Below are positions 3,475 through 10,364 of a DNA stretch of 64,000 bases, piece after piece (within the stretch, counting starts at the first letter, position 1; each line of letters opens with the position of its first letter). A program made the translations under genes and the position numbers. The stretch covers positions 1 to 64,000 of the forward strand of contig JAAYUV010000114.1 in assembly GCA_012517475.1 (NCBI GenBank). Reading direction: 5' to 3'. Origin of the DNA: Peptococcaceae bacterium. Its GTDB lineage: Bacteria; Bacillota; Desulfitobacteriia; Desulfitobacteriales; Syntrophobotulaceae. The notes below the pieces were generated by a model, which was not told where the DNA came from, did not search any database, and saw nothing but the letters and a program-made list of their open reading frames with translations.

Positions 3475-4440
3475 ATGAAGAGAATAGTTTTTTTGTTATT
3501 TCTATTATTAATCATAGTGAGTTCTATTACCGCGGGTACGCTTGCCATGTACACTGTTTCCATAGACACCCTGGCTGAAGGCAGTACCGTTGCAAAAGAA
3601 TTTATATTTACCGGTGAGGGAACCGATTCTTTTCAGCAGGGAATAAAAATCGCGCCATCCGAAACCGTAGACTGGCAATTCAAAATAAAAAATTACAAAA
3701 ACCAGGTTATAACCGAAACCGATTTATACTATAAGCTTACGTTTCAGGTGTCTGCTTCTGCAGGCAAGCAGGCAATCTCGCCATTAACTGTCAGCGTTAA
3801 GGATCTCAACGGGAATGTCCTCAACAGAGTCACAGGAACGGGTACGTTTGACATCCTTGGAACTTTTCCGCTTTCGTCCGTCGGACAGGAAAAAGACTTT
3901 ATGGTTGAAATACAATGGCCGGACAGCGGAAACTCCGATATCAACTACGCCGGCAATCGTTTCGGAACCACGATCAACGTCGCTGCTATCGCCTCACAAG
4001 TCCCTCTTAGCGGTTCCGGCTCGGGCAATCCTCCACAGCAAAAGCCCGTCAGCGTAAAGTATGAAACAACAGCTCCGTGGCAAAACGGGCAAGGCAACAA
4101 TTACCAGTATGCGTATAAAATCACGATTACCAACAATTCCAGCGAACCGATCAATAATTGGAACATTGCTCTTTCACTGCAAAATGATAAGCTGACGGAC
4201 GTTTGGAGCAACGCCAAACTCGTTTCTTATACTCCGCCGGGAAATTATTTATTTATTAATCCCGGTTATAACAATCAGTCCACTGACAATATTCTGCCTG
4301 GGGAGAGCGTATCATTCGGGGGGCCTGCTAAGGGAAGGGGAACCGAAGCTATACAAAATGTCAGTGTAGGAGGAAGCAACACAAATTCTATTACCAATGT
4401 GGATTTAACCTGTGAATTTGGCAAGGCATCACTGAACTGA
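3475..4440 (+). CDS. TasA/camelysin-like secreted protein with C-terminal CBM2-like domain
   Basis: 321 aa. Residues 1-26 form a SipW-dependent type leader: a short basic start, a hydrophobic core, then GTLAMYT. Residues about 27-175 match the mature part of the 176-aa paralogue encoded at 4726. A Gly/Ser/Pro linker (178-191) leads to a domain (191-285) with the beta-sandwich pattern of CBM2 cellulose-binding modules: W202, NNW (227-229), VW (243-244) and a final PGESVSFGG. The inferred role is a fibre-forming or fibre-associated matrix protein that also binds polysaccharide. A SipW-type peptidase encoded 2.6 kb downstream is the natural processing enzyme. The start follows AGAGGTG. The CBM2 call is by pattern only. 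Confidence 0.75.
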   Translation: MKRIVFLLFLLLIIVSSITAGTLAMYTVSIDTLAEGSTVAKEFIFTGEGTDSFQQGIKIAPSETVDWQFKIKNYKNQVITETDLYYKLTFQVSASAGKQAISPLTVSVKDLNGNVLNRVTGTGTFDILGTFPLSSVGQEKDFMVEIQWPDSGNSDINYAGNRFGTTINVAAIASQVPLSGSGSGNPPQQKPVSVKYETTAPWQNGQGNNYQYAYKITITNNSSEPINNWNIALSLQNDKLTDVWSNAKLVSYTPPGNYLFINPGYNNQSTDNILPGESVSFGGPAKGRGTEAIQNVSVGGSNTNSITNVDLTCEFGKASLN

Positions 4441-4498
4441 CTGTCATGATTATCAGGTTCATCGGTATAAGAATAGTTTCAGGCTGGAGGGGGGCAAG

Positions 4499-4630
4499 AT
4501 GAAAGCTAAAATATTACTCATATTCTTTTTATGCACTGCTGTTTTTGTATCCTTAGCTGTTGGAAGCCTTTCCAGCTATACAACCGTTTCCGGTTTCAGC
4601 GTAAGCATTACCCCGGATACCAAAAAGTAG
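4499..4630 (+). CDS. 43-aa micropeptide with SipW-type leader
   Basis: A short ORF of 43 residues with a strong GGAGG site (4486-4490) just upstream. It has a lysine-containing start, a hydrophobic core (residues 5-21) and a GSLSSYTT motif that parallels the GTLAMYT cleavage region of the two flanking TasA-like proteins. If cut at the equivalent point, it would leave a mature peptide of about 17 residues ending in two lysines. It lies between two genes with the same leader type, so it is probably co-transcribed and handled by the same SipW-type peptidase. No homologue is recognised. It could instead be the remnant of a third TasA-like gene, since the leader is intact but no globular domain follows. 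Confidence 0.6.
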   Translation: MKAKILLIFFLCTAVFVSLAVGSLSSYTTVSGFSVSITPDTKK

Positions 4631-4725
4631 ATATTAATTTGATCCATTACAGAAACGATTTGAGGATTCGTACTTGAGATAAGCAAATCTAAGAAAATCA
4701 TTAACTAACGTGGGGGTAAAATTGA

Positions 4726-5256
4726 ATGAAAAAAATATTAGTTCTTATTGCTCTGGTTCTGATTTTATCTACATCCGTTATTGCCGGAACCCTGGCTATG
4801 TATACGACCAAGATTGATAACCTCGCTGAGGGCAGTGCGATTGCAAAAGAATTCATCCTCTTAAAGGGCGGCACCGATACATTTACCAAGAATGTTAAAA
4901 TTGCCCCGGGCGAAACGGTAAACTGGCAGTTTAGTGTAAAAAACTATAACGGCACAGTTGTAAGCGAAACTGCCATGGACCTGAATTGCAGTATCAATGT
5001 AACAGCGACAGACGGTAAAAGCGCGATTGCCCCGCTTGTGGTCACCGTTAAGAATTCTGCCGGTACAACGGTAGGAACTGTTACAACGAGCGGCCAAATT
5101 CAATTTGCCGACGAATTTGCGCTGAATGCCAGCGGTCAGGAGAAAACATATACCGTATCTGTCAACTGGCCGGGCAACGGCACCAACGACGCCAGTTATG
5201 CAGGCGCCAATTACGGGACCGATGTCAAGGTATCGGTAACCGGTACGCAGAAATAA
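4726..5256 (+). CDS. TasA/camelysin-like secreted protein, SipW-dependent leader
   Basis: 176 aa. The leader (residues 1-26, ending in GTLAMYT) and the whole mature region parallel residues 1-175 of the CBM-bearing paralogue at 3475. Shared segments include NLAEGS, VAKEF-like, APGETV.WQF and a C-terminal NYGT.V.V strand. The mature domain is beta-rich with few charged clusters, as in TasA and camelysin, which build biofilm fibres or sit on the cell surface. It lacks the CBM domain, so it is the natural candidate for the main fibre subunit, with the longer protein as a minor, glycan-binding one; that is an inference. A strong terminator follows 25 bp later. Confidence 0.75.
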   Translation: MKKILVLIALVLILSTSVIAGTLAMYTTKIDNLAEGSAIAKEFILLKGGTDTFTKNVKIAPGETVNWQFSVKNYNGTVVSETAMDLNCSINVTATDGKSAIAPLVVTVKNSAGTTVGTVTTSGQIQFADEFALNASGQEKTYTVSVNWPGNGTNDASYAGANYGTDVKVSVTGTQK

Positions 5257-5281
5257 ATCATAAATACCATTGCTCAACCAG

Positions 5282-5316
5282 AAGGGGTTTGATCTGCAGC
5301 GATCAAGCCCTTTTTT
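5282..5316 (+). terminator. Strong intrinsic terminator of the TasA-like genes
   Basis: AAGGGGTTTGATC pairs with GATCAAGCCCTT around a 6-nt loop and is followed by TTTTTT. It closes the transcript carrying the three SipW-leader genes. Confidence 0.85.
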
Positions 5317-5540
5317 GGTTTATATATTTTTCTTATTTCTAAGTAATTTATTGTCTATTAGCAAAAATACATTGGATTTTCATTTCCTGCATTACCTGCG
5401 TGTTCTTTTACAGTTGATATTTATTTTTTATCACGAATACCTTGATCATTTTCCAGTAACCGTACTCAGGATGTCTGGAGTAAATTTCATCAATAGGCCT
5501 TTTAATATCCAGTTCTTCCTGGTTAATTAGGACACGCTTA

Positions 5541-5615
5541 TAATAAGGCTCGTCTTATTAGCCATTAAAAACACGTCAATACGGTCAGTCTTCAATAAAC
5601 CGTGTTTACGTGTTT
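5541..5615. other. Two adjacent inverted repeats in an otherwise empty gap
   Basis: TAATAAG/CTTATTA (5541-5560) is followed by a two-step stem, AAACACGT/ACGTGTTT with inner ACGGT/ACCGT (5569-5615). There is no clear U-run on the plus strand. They may be a second terminator or an operator for the gene at 5695. Nothing else is seen in 5317-5694. Confidence 0.35.
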
Positions 5616-5694
5616 CTTAGTATTTAGCCACCATATTTTATTCAAAATATGGTATATAATTACTATAAGAGAAGATGTTATGAGAGGTATTGAT

Positions 5695-6237
5695 ATGCAA
5701 AAAGAAAGAGTCCAAATGGAATCAGGGGAGGATTTACTTTCAATTAAGATATTCTCCAGAAAGAGTTTATTGCGATCAGTATTTCTTTATTTTTCTTTAG
5801 GACTTTGTATTTTTTTTATAATTTTTTCTTTTAATGCCTTTCAGATATATTCTTTGCCTCAAGTCTTATTAATTTTTTTACTCATTATACTTGCTCTTTG
5901 CGGGCTAAAAATATTAGATATGATAAAATGGAACATTAATGGGAAGGAAGTAATAACACTTTCTTCTGAAAAATTGAAAATCGAGAAAAGGTCACTAATA
6001 CGCAATAATAAGGAGTATTTATTAGAGCAAATAAAGAATATAAGAATCGAGCCGGAAAGTGATTCTGTTCTTCGATGGTATACAACTGGAGAATTTGTTA
6101 CATTTGTTACCGCAATATTAACTGCACCGGAAGGCTTAATAAAATTTGATTATGGAAGAAAGACAATAAGATTTGCATATGACATTAGAGAAGATGAGGC
6201 ATTAAAAATTATAGAAGAAATCAAAAAACGAATTTGA
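5695..6237 (+). CDS. Membrane-anchored hypothetical protein with two TM helices and a PH-like C-terminal region
   Basis: 180 aa from the ATG at 5695, which has GAGAGG 7 nt upstream; an in-frame ATG at 5602 would add 31 residues without an RBS and is rejected. Two hydrophobic helices (about 28-50 and 54-75) form a hairpin. They are followed by a soluble beta-rich region with alternating charged strands (NGKEVITLSSEKLKIEKR and later), ending in an acidic-basic helix. This order resembles small bacterial PH-like membrane proteins of unknown function. The gene is more AT-rich than its neighbours and stands alone between hairpins, so it may have been acquired separately. No function is assigned. 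Confidence 0.6.
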   Translation: MQKERVQMESGEDLLSIKIFSRKSLLRSVFLYFSLGLCIFFIIFSFNAFQIYSLPQVLLIFLLIILALCGLKILDMIKWNINGKEVITLSSEKLKIEKRSLIRNNKEYLLEQIKNIRIEPESDSVLRWYTTGEFVTFVTAILTAPEGLIKFDYGRKTIRFAYDIREDEALKIIEEIKKRI

Positions 6238-6313
6238 TTACCATCTCTTGCTATTAATTTGTTTTGAGTAAATATTTCGCTACCATTCTTCCATCTTTTT
6301 TTCTAAAGGAGTC

Positions 6314-6618
6314 ATGTATATTGTGGGAAACGTTATTGCGTATGATTTTTGGCCGTTAGGGATTATTGTTGAAATTAATGTTATGTATACGGTATAGAAT
6401 TTTAGAATAATATCAAGAGAGGAAGATAAATTAATGAATATAGCCAATGTTGAAAAGGGTTTCATTTGCACTTTGAGGAATCTGATTCTGGCCATAAAAT
6501 CTTTGATGTTTTTCACTTAATAAGAAGGAATGTAGGAGCAATTATAAAATCTAATCCTTATTGGTGGGGTAATAATGTACCAAGTAATGAACTGTATAAC
6601 CAGAATTTATGCGGTTAA
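6314..6618 (+). pseudogene. Probable remnant of a small decayed gene
   Basis: An AAAGGAG site precedes an ATG at 6314 that opens a 27-codon frame (starting MYIVGNVIAYDFWPLG). A second frame from 6434 (MNIANVEKGF) and a third from 6457 to the stop at 6618 (containing SGHKIFDVFHLIRR and PYWWGNN) read like successive pieces of one protein in shifted frames. The family is not recognised. Codon-like composition and a good RBS suggest a former gene, but the region could be non-coding. It lies inside a 777-bp gap with no intact gene. Confidence 0.3.
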
Positions 6619-6673
6619 GACAATCCCACAAAAGTCCGGAAATAAAGCTCGCTTGTATATTTTTATTTCATCT

Positions 6674-6700
6674 AAGGCCTCAACAAGGGGCCTTTTCTTT
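6674..6700 (+). terminator. Intrinsic terminator
   Basis: AAGGCC (6674-6679) pairs with GGCCTT (6689-6694) and is followed by TTCTTT. It probably ended the transcript of the decayed gene just upstream. Confidence 0.5.
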
Positions 6701-6789
6701 ATGAAAGGTTTCCTAGCCTATCTTGAAATCCGCTATTATCAAGGCTTTGCAAAAAGGTTCCAAATTCAGAAAATTCATTGGACCGGTTA

Positions 6790-6838
6790 GAGGGTGGTTT
6801 TTGGAAAAGTGGCTTAAATAAGCCAAAAAACCGCCCTC
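6790..6838. repeat. Long nested inverted repeat
   Basis: GAGGGTGGTTTTTGG pairs with CCAAAAAACCGCCCTC, and the enclosed GGCTTA/TAAGCC forms its own stem. At 49 bp it is too long for a simple terminator. It lies in the gene-free stretch before the signal peptidase gene and could be a MITE fragment, operator or bidirectional terminator. Confidence 0.45.
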
Positions 6839-7014
6839 ATATTTGTCCTGTAGGCTCCAAAATATTTTTGGGAAGGGGACAGTAGCCAAAAAGAAAAATG
6901 AGGCCCTTATAAGGTCAATAAAAAACTTAGCCAAATCTTACTTTTCGTTATCTGATTTTTTATCTTAACTAAGGACATAATATGAACAGAATCCATACAT
7001 AGGGGTCAGAGTGA

Positions 7015-7587
7015 ATGCCGTTAGCCAAGTATACTACTCAGGAACAAATTGATGAAATGCGCCGGGAAATACAGCGGGAGAAAGAAAAGTTTTTGAAGCA
7101 TTCCAAAAATCCCGGCAGCAGAAACTGGACAAGGCCCAAAGCAAAGCCAAAGCAAATTGGAAAAGTGGCAATAAAGATAACCGGATGGATGATCTTTATT
7201 GCCATTGTTGGACTGCTGGCATCGGCCATTGTCTCCATTAATATCGCGAAGAGCAGGGGAGAAGTCCCCAATTTTTTGGGTTTACAGGTTTTTTCCGTTG
7301 AATCGGGCAGTATGGAACCTACCTTAAATACAGGATCTATGATTATAAGCCGGATGCCAAAAGACCCTCAACGCCTTAAAGTAAATCAGATCGTAACTTT
7401 CAGGACATTATCCGGGTTAATTGTTACCCATCGGATTATTGAAGTCGTCACCACTTCAGACGGGGGAATCGCTTACCGAACAAAAGGGGATAATCCGATC
7501 AATTCACCAGACCAGGAATTGCTCTCTCCGGATCGGATTATCGGTGTTTTTATCGCAAAAATACCGTTTACCTCACATCAAACTTAG
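7015..7587 (+). CDS. sipW: SipW-type (ER-type) signal peptidase I
   Basis: 190 aa. A 50-residue, highly charged cytoplasmic extension (helical, rich in E, K and R) precedes one TM helix (about 55-78). The extracytoplasmic catalytic domain follows: nucleophile S99 in SGSMEP, H139 in VTHRII (the ER-type His in place of Lys), and D159 in TKGDN. SipW peptidases process TasA-like matrix proteins, and three leaders of that type are encoded at 3475-5256. Two oddities stand out. The N-terminal extension is not usual for SipW. The C-terminus stops at AKIPFTSHQT, where family members normally continue into a second TM helix; the stop codon lies in the left arm of the inverted repeat at 7584. It should still be catalytically complete. 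Confidence 0.85.
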   Translation: MPLAKYTTQEQIDEMRREIQREKEKFLKHSKNPGSRNWTRPKAKPKQIGKVAIKITGWMIFIAIVGLLASAIVSINIAKSRGEVPNFLGLQVFSVESGSMEPTLNTGSMIISRMPKDPQRLKVNQIVTFRTLSGLIVTHRIIEVVTTSDGGIAYRTKGDNPINSPDQELLSPDRIIGVFIAKIPFTSHQT

Positions 7588-7959
7588 ATATTTGAGCAAT
7601 TACCTGTCACCACGCGCCAATGACTGCTCTTTACCATCTATGGCATCCCGGCACGCGATACTAGCAGATCAATTCCAAAGTAGTGTGATAACAAAAAAGC
7701 TTTCACTAACCCCAGATTAGTCTCTGCAATGGATGGATAGCGTCAAGTGCGTTACGCATTCGTAACGGGATGCGGAGCGCGGCTGTTTCGAAGGCCAAGG
7801 ATGGCCTAGTGCCGCGATGCCATGGATGGCAGTGAGCGGCTCGCCACGGATGGCCGTAAAGGCCTAGCTGGCCTTTACGCTGCCGAAAGCGTCTATCCAT
7901 TACAGAGACCTGCCCGGATAAAACGAATTGATGTCAAATATCTGATGTCAAATATCTAA
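7584..7959. mobile_element. Segment bounded by 12-bp inverted repeats, possible MITE-like insertion
   Basis: TTAGATATTTGA (7584-7595) and its perfect complement TCAAATATCTAA (7948-7959) bound a gene-free stretch. The right arm is preceded by a tandem duplicate, so the 14-mer GATGTCAAATATCT occurs twice (7930-7943 and 7944-7957). The left arm supplies the stop codon of the signal peptidase gene. No target-site duplication was found, so insertion is only one explanation. A hairpin-rich 188-bp repeat lies inside. Confidence 0.35.
7721..7908 (+). repeat. Hairpin-rich 188-bp element with GGA loops (possible CsrA-decoy RNA or REP-type repeat)
   Basis: The ends are a 14-bp inverted repeat with one mismatch (TCTCTGCAATGGAT at 7721, ATCCATTACAGAGA at 7895). 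Inside are AGGCC-AAGGAT-GGCCT (7792-7807), TGCC-ATGGAT-GGCA (7818-7831) nested in GCCGC/GCGGC, GCC-ACGGAT-GGC (7843-7854), GTTACG/CGTAAC (7751-7766) and a perfect CGTAAAGGCC/GGCCTTTACG stem (7855-7879). Three short stems thus present ANGGAT in the loop, the known CsrA/RsmA recognition pattern. GC content is visibly higher than in the surroundings. No protein frame is convincing. It may equally be a chromosomal repeat family. Confidence 0.5.
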
Positions 7960-8008
7960 TGGAGAATAATAGCGGAATCAAATTTATCCGTTCTCAAGGA
8001 GAACCCCT

Positions 8009-8977
8009 ATGCCTCATATTGCCGAACACGTCGTATTTATGGAAAATGTCTCATCCGGTGAACACTTTTTAACAAGCGGTGGAAGCCCCCGGCGGGTGCT
8101 TTCAAATATCAGTCTGCTCATGAAAAGATCAGAAGCGTGGGGGATCACGGGAACTTCCCTTTATGAGATAAAACTTCTTCTGGAAATCATGGCGAATATC
8201 AGGCCCTATGACAGCGGACGGTGTGTGCTAATTGAGCAGGGAATGCCCAGGCGTAAAAGGGTGATTCTAAGACACGTCTTTTATATCGGAAATTCTCAAA
8301 TGATCTACAATAACATGAACGTTCTTGAATATCTCATGTTTGTAACAGGAAAGTTACAAAGGAATCAAGTTGAACTTCAGGAAGAAATATTTGAATTGCT
8401 GATTGGAATTGGGCTTGGTCCAATTTCTTTAAGTCCCAATAACCTTCTGACAAAGGAAGAAAAGGCTGTGGTCGCGTTGCTTGCAGCCGTATACTCAGGC
8501 AGCATAATCATCGTTTTTAATCTTCCGGAATACGAATTCGATCCGATTCTTTCCGACGCTATTGCCAAGCTATCAAATTTGATCAGAAAAATGGGGAAAA
8601 CTTTAATTCTCGGAACTAAAAGCTGTCTATTAATAGAGAAAGCCTCTACCCATTCCGCAGTGGTTGCGGGAGGAAAAGTCATATACAGCGGTACAGTCGA
8701 AAACTTCCGTTATCAGTACGATCATGTCATCGTCAAGATCAGGGATAAACAAGCCCTTAAAATCAAAGAAAGTCTTACCCCTTTGCTCCCCGGTTATCAA
8801 TTATCAATAAAGAATGACACCCTGATGATCAGCGGCAGCCCGGAGAGAAATGACCCCGAATTGATTTACAAAAAAGTGCTGGAATCGGGTTTTATCCCGG
8901 AACTGATGGAAATGAACCCCAAAACCGTGCAAAATGCCTATGAGGAGCTTATCCTTGAGCATGATTTACCGCAATAG
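8009..8977 (+). CDS. ABC-transporter ATPase homologue lacking catalytic motifs (pseudo-ATPase)
   Basis: 322 aa with the order of an ABC ATPase but degenerate motifs. The P-loop region reads GITGTSLYEI (45-54) in place of GxxGxGKST. The LSGGQ region reads LLTKEEKAVVALLAA. The Walker B region reads IIIVFNLPEYEFDP (167-179), with the catalytic D and E missing. The switch-histidine region reads LGTKS. The spacing, the following C-terminal strands (GGKVIYSGTVENF) and the downstream permease gene all fit an ABC-2 ATPase lineage. It should not hydrolyse ATP and may be a structural or regulatory subunit. The frame is intact and the RBS (AAGGAG, 7996) is good, so it is a maintained gene. It overlaps the permease gene by 17 bp. 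Confidence 0.7.
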   Translation: MPHIAEHVVFMENVSSGEHFLTSGGSPRRVLSNISLLMKRSEAWGITGTSLYEIKLLLEIMANIRPYDSGRCVLIEQGMPRRKRVILRHVFYIGNSQMIYNNMNVLEYLMFVTGKLQRNQVELQEEIFELLIGIGLGPISLSPNNLLTKEEKAVVALLAAVYSGSIIIVFNLPEYEFDPILSDAIAKLSNLIRKMGKTLILGTKSCLLIEKASTHSAVVAGGKVIYSGTVENFRYQYDHVIVKIRDKQALKIKESLTPLLPGYQLSIKNDTLMISGSPERNDPELIYKKVLESGFIPELMEMNPKTVQNAYEELILEHDLPQ

Positions 8978-10364
8978 TTATTTTAAAAAAGAACTTCGCC
9001 AGGCTTATTCGGAGAACCGGACAAGTTCAGGCCGAAAACTTGCTTCCGCACTTTTCCTGGGGCTGATTTCCTTTGCTCTTTTTTTCGTATTCCAGACACT
9101 TCAGGAAAGTGTACTTTCCGAGAGCGTGCCCCAAATTATGCAGCCCAGTTTCTTTTCTACCGTAACCATTTATATTCATGCAGCCTTTGTATTCTATACC
9201 CTGTATTTCATCGTCAATTATGAAACCTTGTTCTTCAGTGAAATCAGGAATAACTCCTGGTATCTGCTGATCCAAATGGGCTACCATCCTGTCATGATGT
9301 TCTTTTCCAAATTACTGGCCCTTTTGTACACCGCTTTTATGATTTATACGGTCGGCTTTCTTGTTACGGTTTTTCTAACCCTTTTTCTGAAATATACCTT
9401 TATCCTTTCCTATTTGCCGTCCCTTTACCTGGCAGGGTTAACCGACATCTTTCTGATCAGCATCCTGTCCATGATATTTTCACTTTTTACTAAAACCATA
9501 GTCAACGCCAGGTACTGGATTTTCTTTTCCGCCGTGATCATTGTCGTGTTGAAAATAATGCTTGGTGAATACACGATTTTATCCAACCGGGTTTCCATGC
9601 AGAACATCAATAACTTGTTTGCTTTAAATTATACTGCTTATATCCCAGCCGCTCTTGTGCTGATGATTCTATTCTGCTTCATCTGCCTGATCAAATCGGA
9701 TAACCTGGCCAAATATTATAATTATAATCCACCGTCTGACACCCCCTTCATTCCCGAAGGGGTTCAAGTCGTTCGTATCGATTCCTCCACGGGTAAACAA
9801 AAAATCCTTTGGAACAAGGACAAAAAAGGATGGCGCGGCAGGGTCTTCGATACGGTATCGACAGCCTTCCTGATTATTTTTATCTGTACGGCGCTGGCTT
9901 TTAATATTTTTATTATCTTGATCAATACGTCTACCCCCGGCCAGGAAGTATCTATCCGGGGGGTGATCCCTTTTGTTTTTCAGTCCAGGACGATGGAACC
10001 TGCCATTCAAATGAATGACCTGACTTTCTTTCGGAAAATCGATCCCTGGTTCCCGGTAGAAGCAGGCCAGATTATTTTATTTGAAGAAAATCATCTTATT
10101 TATGTGGAAAGAGTACTGGTAAAAGCGGGAGAGGAATTAAAAGCTGATATTGACAACTATCCGCCCCTGTCCCAGCCCGGGGCAATGCTCAAAACCGTCC
10201 CCAGGGAAGCCGTACATGGGGTTTATATCGGCAGAAACCGCTGGCTTGGCGCCTTGATTTTCTTTGCCAATACTATTGTGGGGAGAATTCTTTTTTTACT
10301 GGTCCCGGCCGTATTGCTTTTTTATTCCAAACAGATCAATGATTATCTAAAAAAGCAACGGTAA
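8961..10364 (+). CDS. ABC-2-like permease fused to a degenerate SipW-type peptidase domain
   Basis: 467 aa from the ATG at 8961; a TTG at 8955 has better spacing to GAGGAG (8942-8947). Residues about 30-245 hold six hydrophobic helices, as in ABC-2 permeases. After a charged loop (250-295), the rest copies the layout of a SipW-type signal peptidase: a TM helix (about 300-322), then RTMEP (343-347) where the active peptidase has SGSMEP, then a strand ending in IYVERV where VTHRII is expected, and a C-terminal TM helix (about 430-455). The nucleophile Ser is Thr and the catalytic His is Glu, so peptidase activity is unlikely. With the pseudo-ATPase overlapping it, it probably forms an inactive membrane complex that guides substrates to SipW. 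This fusion is not a family I recognise. Confidence 0.7.
   Translation: MIYRNSYFKKELRQAYSENRTSSGRKLASALFLGLISFALFFVFQTLQESVLSESVPQIMQPSFFSTVTIYIHAAFVFYTLYFIVNYETLFFSEIRNNSWYLLIQMGYHPVMMFFSKLLALLYTAFMIYTVGFLVTVFLTLFLKYTFILSYLPSLYLAGLTDIFLISILSMIFSLFTKTIVNARYWIFFSAVIIVVLKIMLGEYTILSNRVSMQNINNLFALNYTAYIPAALVLMILFCFICLIKSDNLAKYYNYNPPSDTPFIPEGVQVVRIDSSTGKQKILWNKDKKGWRGRVFDTVSTAFLIIFICTALAFNIFIILINTSTPGQEVSIRGVIPFVFQSRTMEPAIQMNDLTFFRKIDPWFPVEAGQIILFEENHLIYVERVLVKAGEELKADIDNYPPLSQPGAMLKTVPREAVHGVYIGRNRWLGALIFFANTIVGRILFLLVPAVLLFYSKQINDYLKKQR

Follow-up and report, generated by a model that had tools for sequence, protein, structure and literature searches.

A conserved clostridial locus encoding SipW, secreted subunits and a catalytically degenerate ABC pair, a candidate system for donor-strand fibre assembly

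We analysed a stretch of 64,000 nucleotides from a Peptococcaceae bacterium (assembly GCA_012517475.1, contig JAAYUV010000114.1, positions 1 to 64,000; hereafter the window), which lies on a contig (C22 in our set) of a 3.7-Mb genome and contains a locus of six genes in the order TasA1-CBM, micropeptide, TasA2, SipW, pseudo-ABC ATPase and a permease fused to a pseudo-SipW domain. A relative of the same genus (G001) also has the locus. We propose, with a probability of about 0.45, that the six genes constitute a donor-strand fibre system like TapA-SipW-TasA of Bacillus subtilis, to which a non-hydrolysing membrane platform has been added. The locus had been pointed out in a preliminary description made from the window alone, which overlooked that the micropeptide is encoded by a gene of its own, that TasA1 carries a CBM2 domain and that a hairpin stands between the fibre genes and the machinery genes. 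The features of the locus are as follows.

3475–4440, + strand: TasA1-CBM, 321 amino acids (aa), with a SipW-type leader, a beta-rich domain about 50% identical to TasA2 and a C-terminal CBM2 (CBM_2, E 1.7e-7)
4499–4630, + strand: micropeptide gene, 43 aa (start ATG 4499, stop TAG 4630); the SipW-type leader precedes about 18 mature residues, which may act as a donor-strand starter
4726–5256, + strand: TasA2, 176 aa, a beta-sandwich protein with a SipW-type leader; probably the main subunit of the fibre
5285–5316, + strand: terminator-like hairpin and T run 3' of TasA2
7015–7587, + strand: SipW, a signal peptidase of the endoplasmic reticulum (ER)/archaeal type, with Ser99, His139 and Asp159 intact
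8009–8977, + strand: pseudo-ABC ATPase of the GldA/DrrA type, with every catalytic motif lost
8961–10364, + strand: permease with an ABC-2 fold (residues 16-254) and a pseudo-SipW domain (about 306-456) with Thr344 and Glu383

Results

The locus is inherited as a unit. The full fusion permease was found in 17 of the 74 genomes of the order, the cognate SipW (E<1e-80) was present in exactly those 17, and the TasA2 profile detected two proteins (TasA2 and TasA1) in each of the same 17 genomes, which are related to each other, and none in the others. The gene order was constant across the carriers, and the identical presence in 17 of 74 genomes rules out a chance neighbourhood, although a Fisher value for this co-occurrence is not to be taken as a probability, given the relatedness of the carriers. 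Because several genera include both carriers and non-carriers, gain and loss affect the set as a whole. Furthermore, the evolutionary distances of the five proteins correlated with one another at 0.76-0.92, the highest value being that of the pseudo-ATPase with the permease. The same gene order was observed outside the order in Anaerobacterium chartisolvens, a metagenome-assembled genome (MAG) of the Clostridiaceae and HGW-Firmicutes-7, and the operon was also detected in a Lutispora MAG, in which the contig is cut before TasA1, and in genome G082, which has no micropeptide. In a sample of the phylum, 4 of 398 genomes had the pair of pseudo-ATPase and fusion permease, 3 of them from this order; no genome among the 398 had the pair without SipW, and the next ATPase matches were far weaker (E 6e-17 or worse). 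Thus, the co-occurrence with SipW and SipW-leader genes that the preliminary description had suggested held as that of a conserved unit, and a search for cases that would contradict it, namely orthologues of the pair without SipW or TasA-like genes or relatives with an intact ATPase, found neither. The carriers are some soil and groundwater Clostridia, including culturable Desulfosporosinus.

Two further permease matches in the order were a 50-residue remnant in one Desulfosporosinus and a weak match of 50 residues. The remnant stands alone (L110, 9008-9160), the other genes not being found nearby, which suggests that the whole locus was lost there. In some related genomes that lack the pair, SipW loci of another kind are present, which encode ordinary camelysin-like proteins and regulators. 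A few kb from one such ordinary SipW/camelysin locus, a dense array of short repeats (L114, 1-1800), whose open reading frames (ORFs) read repeated AYHIKICQGTVT or SIPYQDLSGNCN, is probably an array of clustered regularly interspaced short palindromic repeats (CRISPR).

The pseudo-ATPase matched the GldA model with an E-value of 7e-10, and its profile matched PDB entry 1vpl with an E-value of 1e-13 over residues 27-239, indicating homology to the nucleotide-binding domain (NBD) of ABC transporters. In the 22 orthologues, Ile, Val or Leu replaced the P-loop Lys, Asn replaced the Walker B Asp, and Leu, Phe or Val replaced the catalytic Glu; the LSGGQ signature was changed to an LTKEE-like (LTKEEKAV-like) sequence and the H-switch His was absent. 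None of Walker A, Walker B, LSGGQ and the H-switch therefore had the form of an ABC ATPase in any of the 22, as the preliminary description had seen in the single copy of the window. Since the motif loss is common to all 22 orthologues, the pairwise identity of which goes down to 49%, the decay is ancient and the pair has been maintained; it is ruled out that an exporter decayed only recently in this strain, and no relative with intact ATPase motifs was present among the 22.

A fold comparison of the permease (VIA) placed residues 16-254 with ABC-2 membrane domains (NosY, Z 12.1; CcmB, Z 12.0; also ABCA, ABCG and PmtC), and the top 40 matches all belonged to the ABC-2 superfamily with Z 9-12. 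A Foldseek search with the fusion permease gave no match with a significant E-value, and PDB sequence searches with its profile gave nothing useful. Conservation in the 22 orthologues was 0.88 in the Q-loop region, compared with a mean of 0.73 for the ATPase, and 0.90 in the coupling segment of the permease, compared with a mean of 0.75; these two regions are the two sides of the contact between the NBD and the membrane domain in established ABC structures. In every locus, the gene of the pseudo-ATPase runs 11-26 nt into that of the permease, the start of the permease in the window being probably ATG 8961 rather than 8934. Taken together, the NBD homology and the membrane fold support the derivation of the pair from an ABC-2 exporter, which upholds the origin from a former exporter that had been suggested from the window.

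The SipW of the operon is a member of the SipW/archaeal-type signal peptidase I family, matching TIGR02228 at 71.1 bits (cut-off, 51.85) and remaining under the Bacillus SipW equivalog cut-off (92.9 compared with 190), and its nearest solved structure is SEC11. It is the only clear SipW in these genomes. Ser99, His139 and Asp159 were invariant across 13 orthologues, in keeping with the active appearance first ascribed to it. The C-terminus of the fusion permease, which had been described as a copy of SipW without Ser and His, was recognised by the SipW model in all 15 members (best E 9.7e-12) and aligned with the cognate SipW in hhalign with an E-value of 3e-6. Thr344 replaces Ser and Glu383 replaces His, both being invariant in 22 orthologues, so that the catalytic Ser plus His or Lys of a signal peptidase is missing. 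Boxes B, D and E of this domain were nevertheless conserved at 0.83, 0.79 and 0.87, above the permease mean of 0.75. Both the ATPase and the fused peptidase are thus homologues without the residues for catalysis. The best precedent for the pseudo-peptidase, by analogy, is SipA, a signal peptidase that has lost catalysis but has a conserved cleft, and that is essential for the polymerisation of streptococcal pili (PMC4049620).

Three SipW-type leaders had been recognised in the window, two of them in the ORFs at 3475-4440 and 4726-5256; the third, counted then as a leader only, belongs to the complete micropeptide gene, which sits behind a strong ribosome-binding site, GGAGGGGGG. We identified the micropeptide in 19 loci, at 40-65 residues (108 in Anaerobacterium) and with a clear ribosome-binding site in nearly all of them. 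The nonsynonymous difference was smaller than the synonymous one in 171 of 171 pairs, with a median ratio of nonsynonymous to synonymous substitution (dN/dS) of 0.16 in the 48 unsaturated pairs, indicating that the micropeptide is under purifying selection. Its mature part follows the pattern [SN]Y-T-S-V-S-x-F-G-x-S-I, in which Tyr and Phe were invariant in the 19 loci. The Tyr of the SipW-type leader, which we took as position P2', was invariant in TasA2 (19), TasA1 (12) and the micropeptide (19), and TasA likewise bears an aromatic residue at P2' (PMC10269814). If the invariant Tyr is P2', the mature micropeptide would comprise about 15-22 residues in most loci.

In B. subtilis, the N-terminal strand is donated by TapA (PMC10151520; PMC9674648), the first residues of which are nearly identical to those of TasA, and a strain secreting only TapA 44-57 makes a proper biofilm (PMC10151520). 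The leader and length of the micropeptide fit this TapA 44-57 unit, and most micropeptides end about 15-22 residues past the cleavage site, with no folded Ig-like domain after the strand, unlike TapA itself. The separate, conserved gene therefore suggests, by a close analogy, a candidate donor-strand starter that may be called a minimal TapA. The TasA2 subunits start with MYTTxIDNLAEGS, and TasA2 was modelled with moderate confidence as a beta-sandwich, the best fold matches of which were other beta sandwiches.

The terminator-like hairpin splits the fibre genes from the machinery genes in the window; among 22 loci, about half have such a hairpin in a stable form. Such a candidate hairpin after TasA2 would yield many subunits and few copies of the machinery; in the C. 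perfringens sipW-bsaA operon, a terminator with read-through lies 3' of the main subunit (PMC7395162). The window also has insertions outside the conserved unit. A small ORF for a PH-like membrane protein at 5680-6237, between TasA2 and SipW, showed a weak match to the STM3941 family and was absent from the other loci examined, and a dispersed repeat at about 7720-7930, between SipW and the pseudo-ATPase, has dozens of full or partial copies genome-wide (50 matches); the gap between these two genes is 421 nt in the window compared with 20-90 nt in relatives. Two genomes belonging to one genus (L049, 4265-8419, and the corresponding part of L050) have genes on the opposite strand between the fibre genes and SipW; these genes resemble a spore-germination (gerABC-type) operon.

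Discussion

The mechanism that we consider for this locus is drawn by analogy from two precedents, TapA 44-57 and streptococcal SipA, and every binding event in it, as well as the starter role and the platform role, is what we infer from them. The SipW of the operon would cleave all three secreted products, as their SipW-type leaders with Tyr at P2' suggest. The fibre would consist mainly of TasA2, and TasA1-CBM, with its carbohydrate-binding end, would be a subunit that caps or anchors it. Fibre growth could begin when the mature micropeptide lends a beta strand to the initial TasA2 subunit, in the way of TapA residues 44-57 in B. subtilis. Docked on the ABC-2 permease, the pseudo-ATPase would serve as a structural clamp without hydrolysing ATP. 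The permease would keep the pseudo-SipW domain next to SipW, and the retained peptide cleft of this domain would bind leaders or the N-terminal tails that cleavage sets free; cleavage and strand exchange would then take place at one site. The preliminary description had likewise suggested a non-hydrolysing scaffold, which might present matrix subunits to SipW or regulate release. A more far-reaching and more doubtful suggestion is that the locus encodes a Gram-positive counterpart of the usher, in which a platform consisting entirely of pseudoenzymes would link cleavage by SipW with donor-strand polymerisation, a free-standing donor-strand peptide being the starter.

Several observations weigh against this proposal. 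The label TasA-like, given to the secreted proteins in the preliminary description, received no support from sequence profiles or from the fold search: the TasA/camelysin profile (PF12389) had no match above the cut-off in 19 TasA2 members (best value 0.013, in one member) and none in the genome of the window, a comparison of the subunit profile with the camelysin-like proteins of relatives was weak (probability 29%, E 6e-4), and a fold search with TasA2 gave no TasA chain among its matches. Pfam and NCBIfam scans of TasA1 and TasA2 produced scattered chance-level matches only, and PDB sequence searches with the subunit profile yielded nothing useful. No profile or fold test placed TasA1 or TasA2 in the TasA/camelysin family, and it may be that they work like TasA. 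Confidence in the permease model is low (pLDDT 55.9), and the fold search did not retrieve the pseudo-peptidase half of this protein. As for the starter, the micropeptide of A. chartisolvens (L059, 6418-6744; 108 residues) has a long acidic tail after the conserved strand, and G082 has the pair without any micropeptide; a starter of this kind is therefore not indispensable.

The main rival to a platform is a brake on SipW. The pseudo-SipW domain might compete for leaders or bind SipW while the pseudo-ABC core relays a signal from the membrane or envelope; fibre production would thereby be restrained or switched. Competition for the substrate agrees with the retention of boxes B, D and E, the machinery genes may be expressed below the subunits owing to the hairpin after TasA2, and an enzyme paralogue fused to another module is a common design of inhibitors. 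However, the conserved unit includes no signalling domain or regulator, and the strict co-inheritance with structural subunits suits an assembly part equally well or better, so that we consider a brake unlikely. It is less likely still that the Thr/Glu site is a working peptidase of altered chemistry or specificity, serving as a second processing enzyme: the invariance of Thr344 and Glu383 in 22 orthologues does exceed neutral drift, but it equally fits a binding role as in SipA, neither His nor Lys occupies the known position of the general base, and a Ser-to-Thr change in this fold is expected to be inactive.

We also regard as very improbable that the pair has remained a transporter or channel, with the micropeptide or a glycan as a conceivable substrate and with either ATP-independent gating or energy from an ATPase whose gene lies elsewhere. 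The ABC-2 membrane fold has been retained, and small amphipathic peptides are the cargo of some exporters of this class, such as PmtCD; nevertheless, the micropeptide bears its own Sec-type leader and needs no exporter, the gene overlapping that of the permease encodes a dead ATPase, and the conserved unit has no other ATPase. The micropeptide could, in turn, be a regulatory or coupling ORF that, for instance, competes for SipW or couples translation as a leader of TasA2, as its position just upstream of TasA2 and a leader conserved as strongly as the mature part would allow. There is only a small chance of this, as coupling does not need the residue-level conservation of the mature part (Tyr and Phe invariant; dN/dS about 0.16), and its size fits the functional TapA 44-57 unit.

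Compared with known systems, the locus most resembles tapA-sipW-tasA of B. subtilis in its dedicated SipW, its secreted beta-sandwich subunits, its SipW-type leaders with an aromatic P2' and the resemblance of the N-terminal strand of the starter to that of the subunit. It differs in that the starter is a stand-alone gene of 40-65 residues in nearly all loci, that there is no TasA profile match, that one subunit carries CBM2, and that the pseudo-ABC/pseudo-peptidase pair is added. The sipW-bsaABCRSD operon of C. perfringens and the sipW/tasA/calY operon of B. cereus with CapP likewise combine SipW with polymerising secreted proteins, but they have no ABC-like genes, their accessory factors being secreted proteins, a two-component system or CapP (PMC13082335). 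Streptococcal SipA shares the signal-peptidase fold without the catalytic dyad, the conserved cleft and the requirement for surface polymer assembly (PMC4049620), whereas it serves pili that are built by sortases, lacks a permease fusion and carries Asp/Gly instead of Thr/Glu at the dyad positions. ABC-2 exporters with GldA/DrrA-type ATPases (NosFY, CcmAB and PmtCD) have in common with the pair the NBD homology, the ABC-2 membrane fold and adjacent, overlapping genes, while the pair lacks the ATPase motifs and has the C-terminal pseudo-SipW fusion. The eukaryotic signal peptidase complex (SEC11) also places an ER-type peptidase beside non-catalytic membrane partners; those partners are other proteins, whereas here one partner includes a paralogue of the peptidase. 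Searches of the open-access literature yielded no description of ABC-like partners at a SipW or TasA locus, which agrees with the novelty originally claimed for the combination.

The locus gives donor-strand fibre assembly outside chaperone-usher systems a compact and co-inherited candidate machine; a study of archaeal threads describes the pathway of such assembly as yet unknown (PMC9715654). The locus includes a natural minimal TapA, which could be used to examine the idea of a donor-strand starter. It also represents a case in which a whole exporter and a peptidase have been turned into non-catalytic parts and kept so across distant Clostridia.

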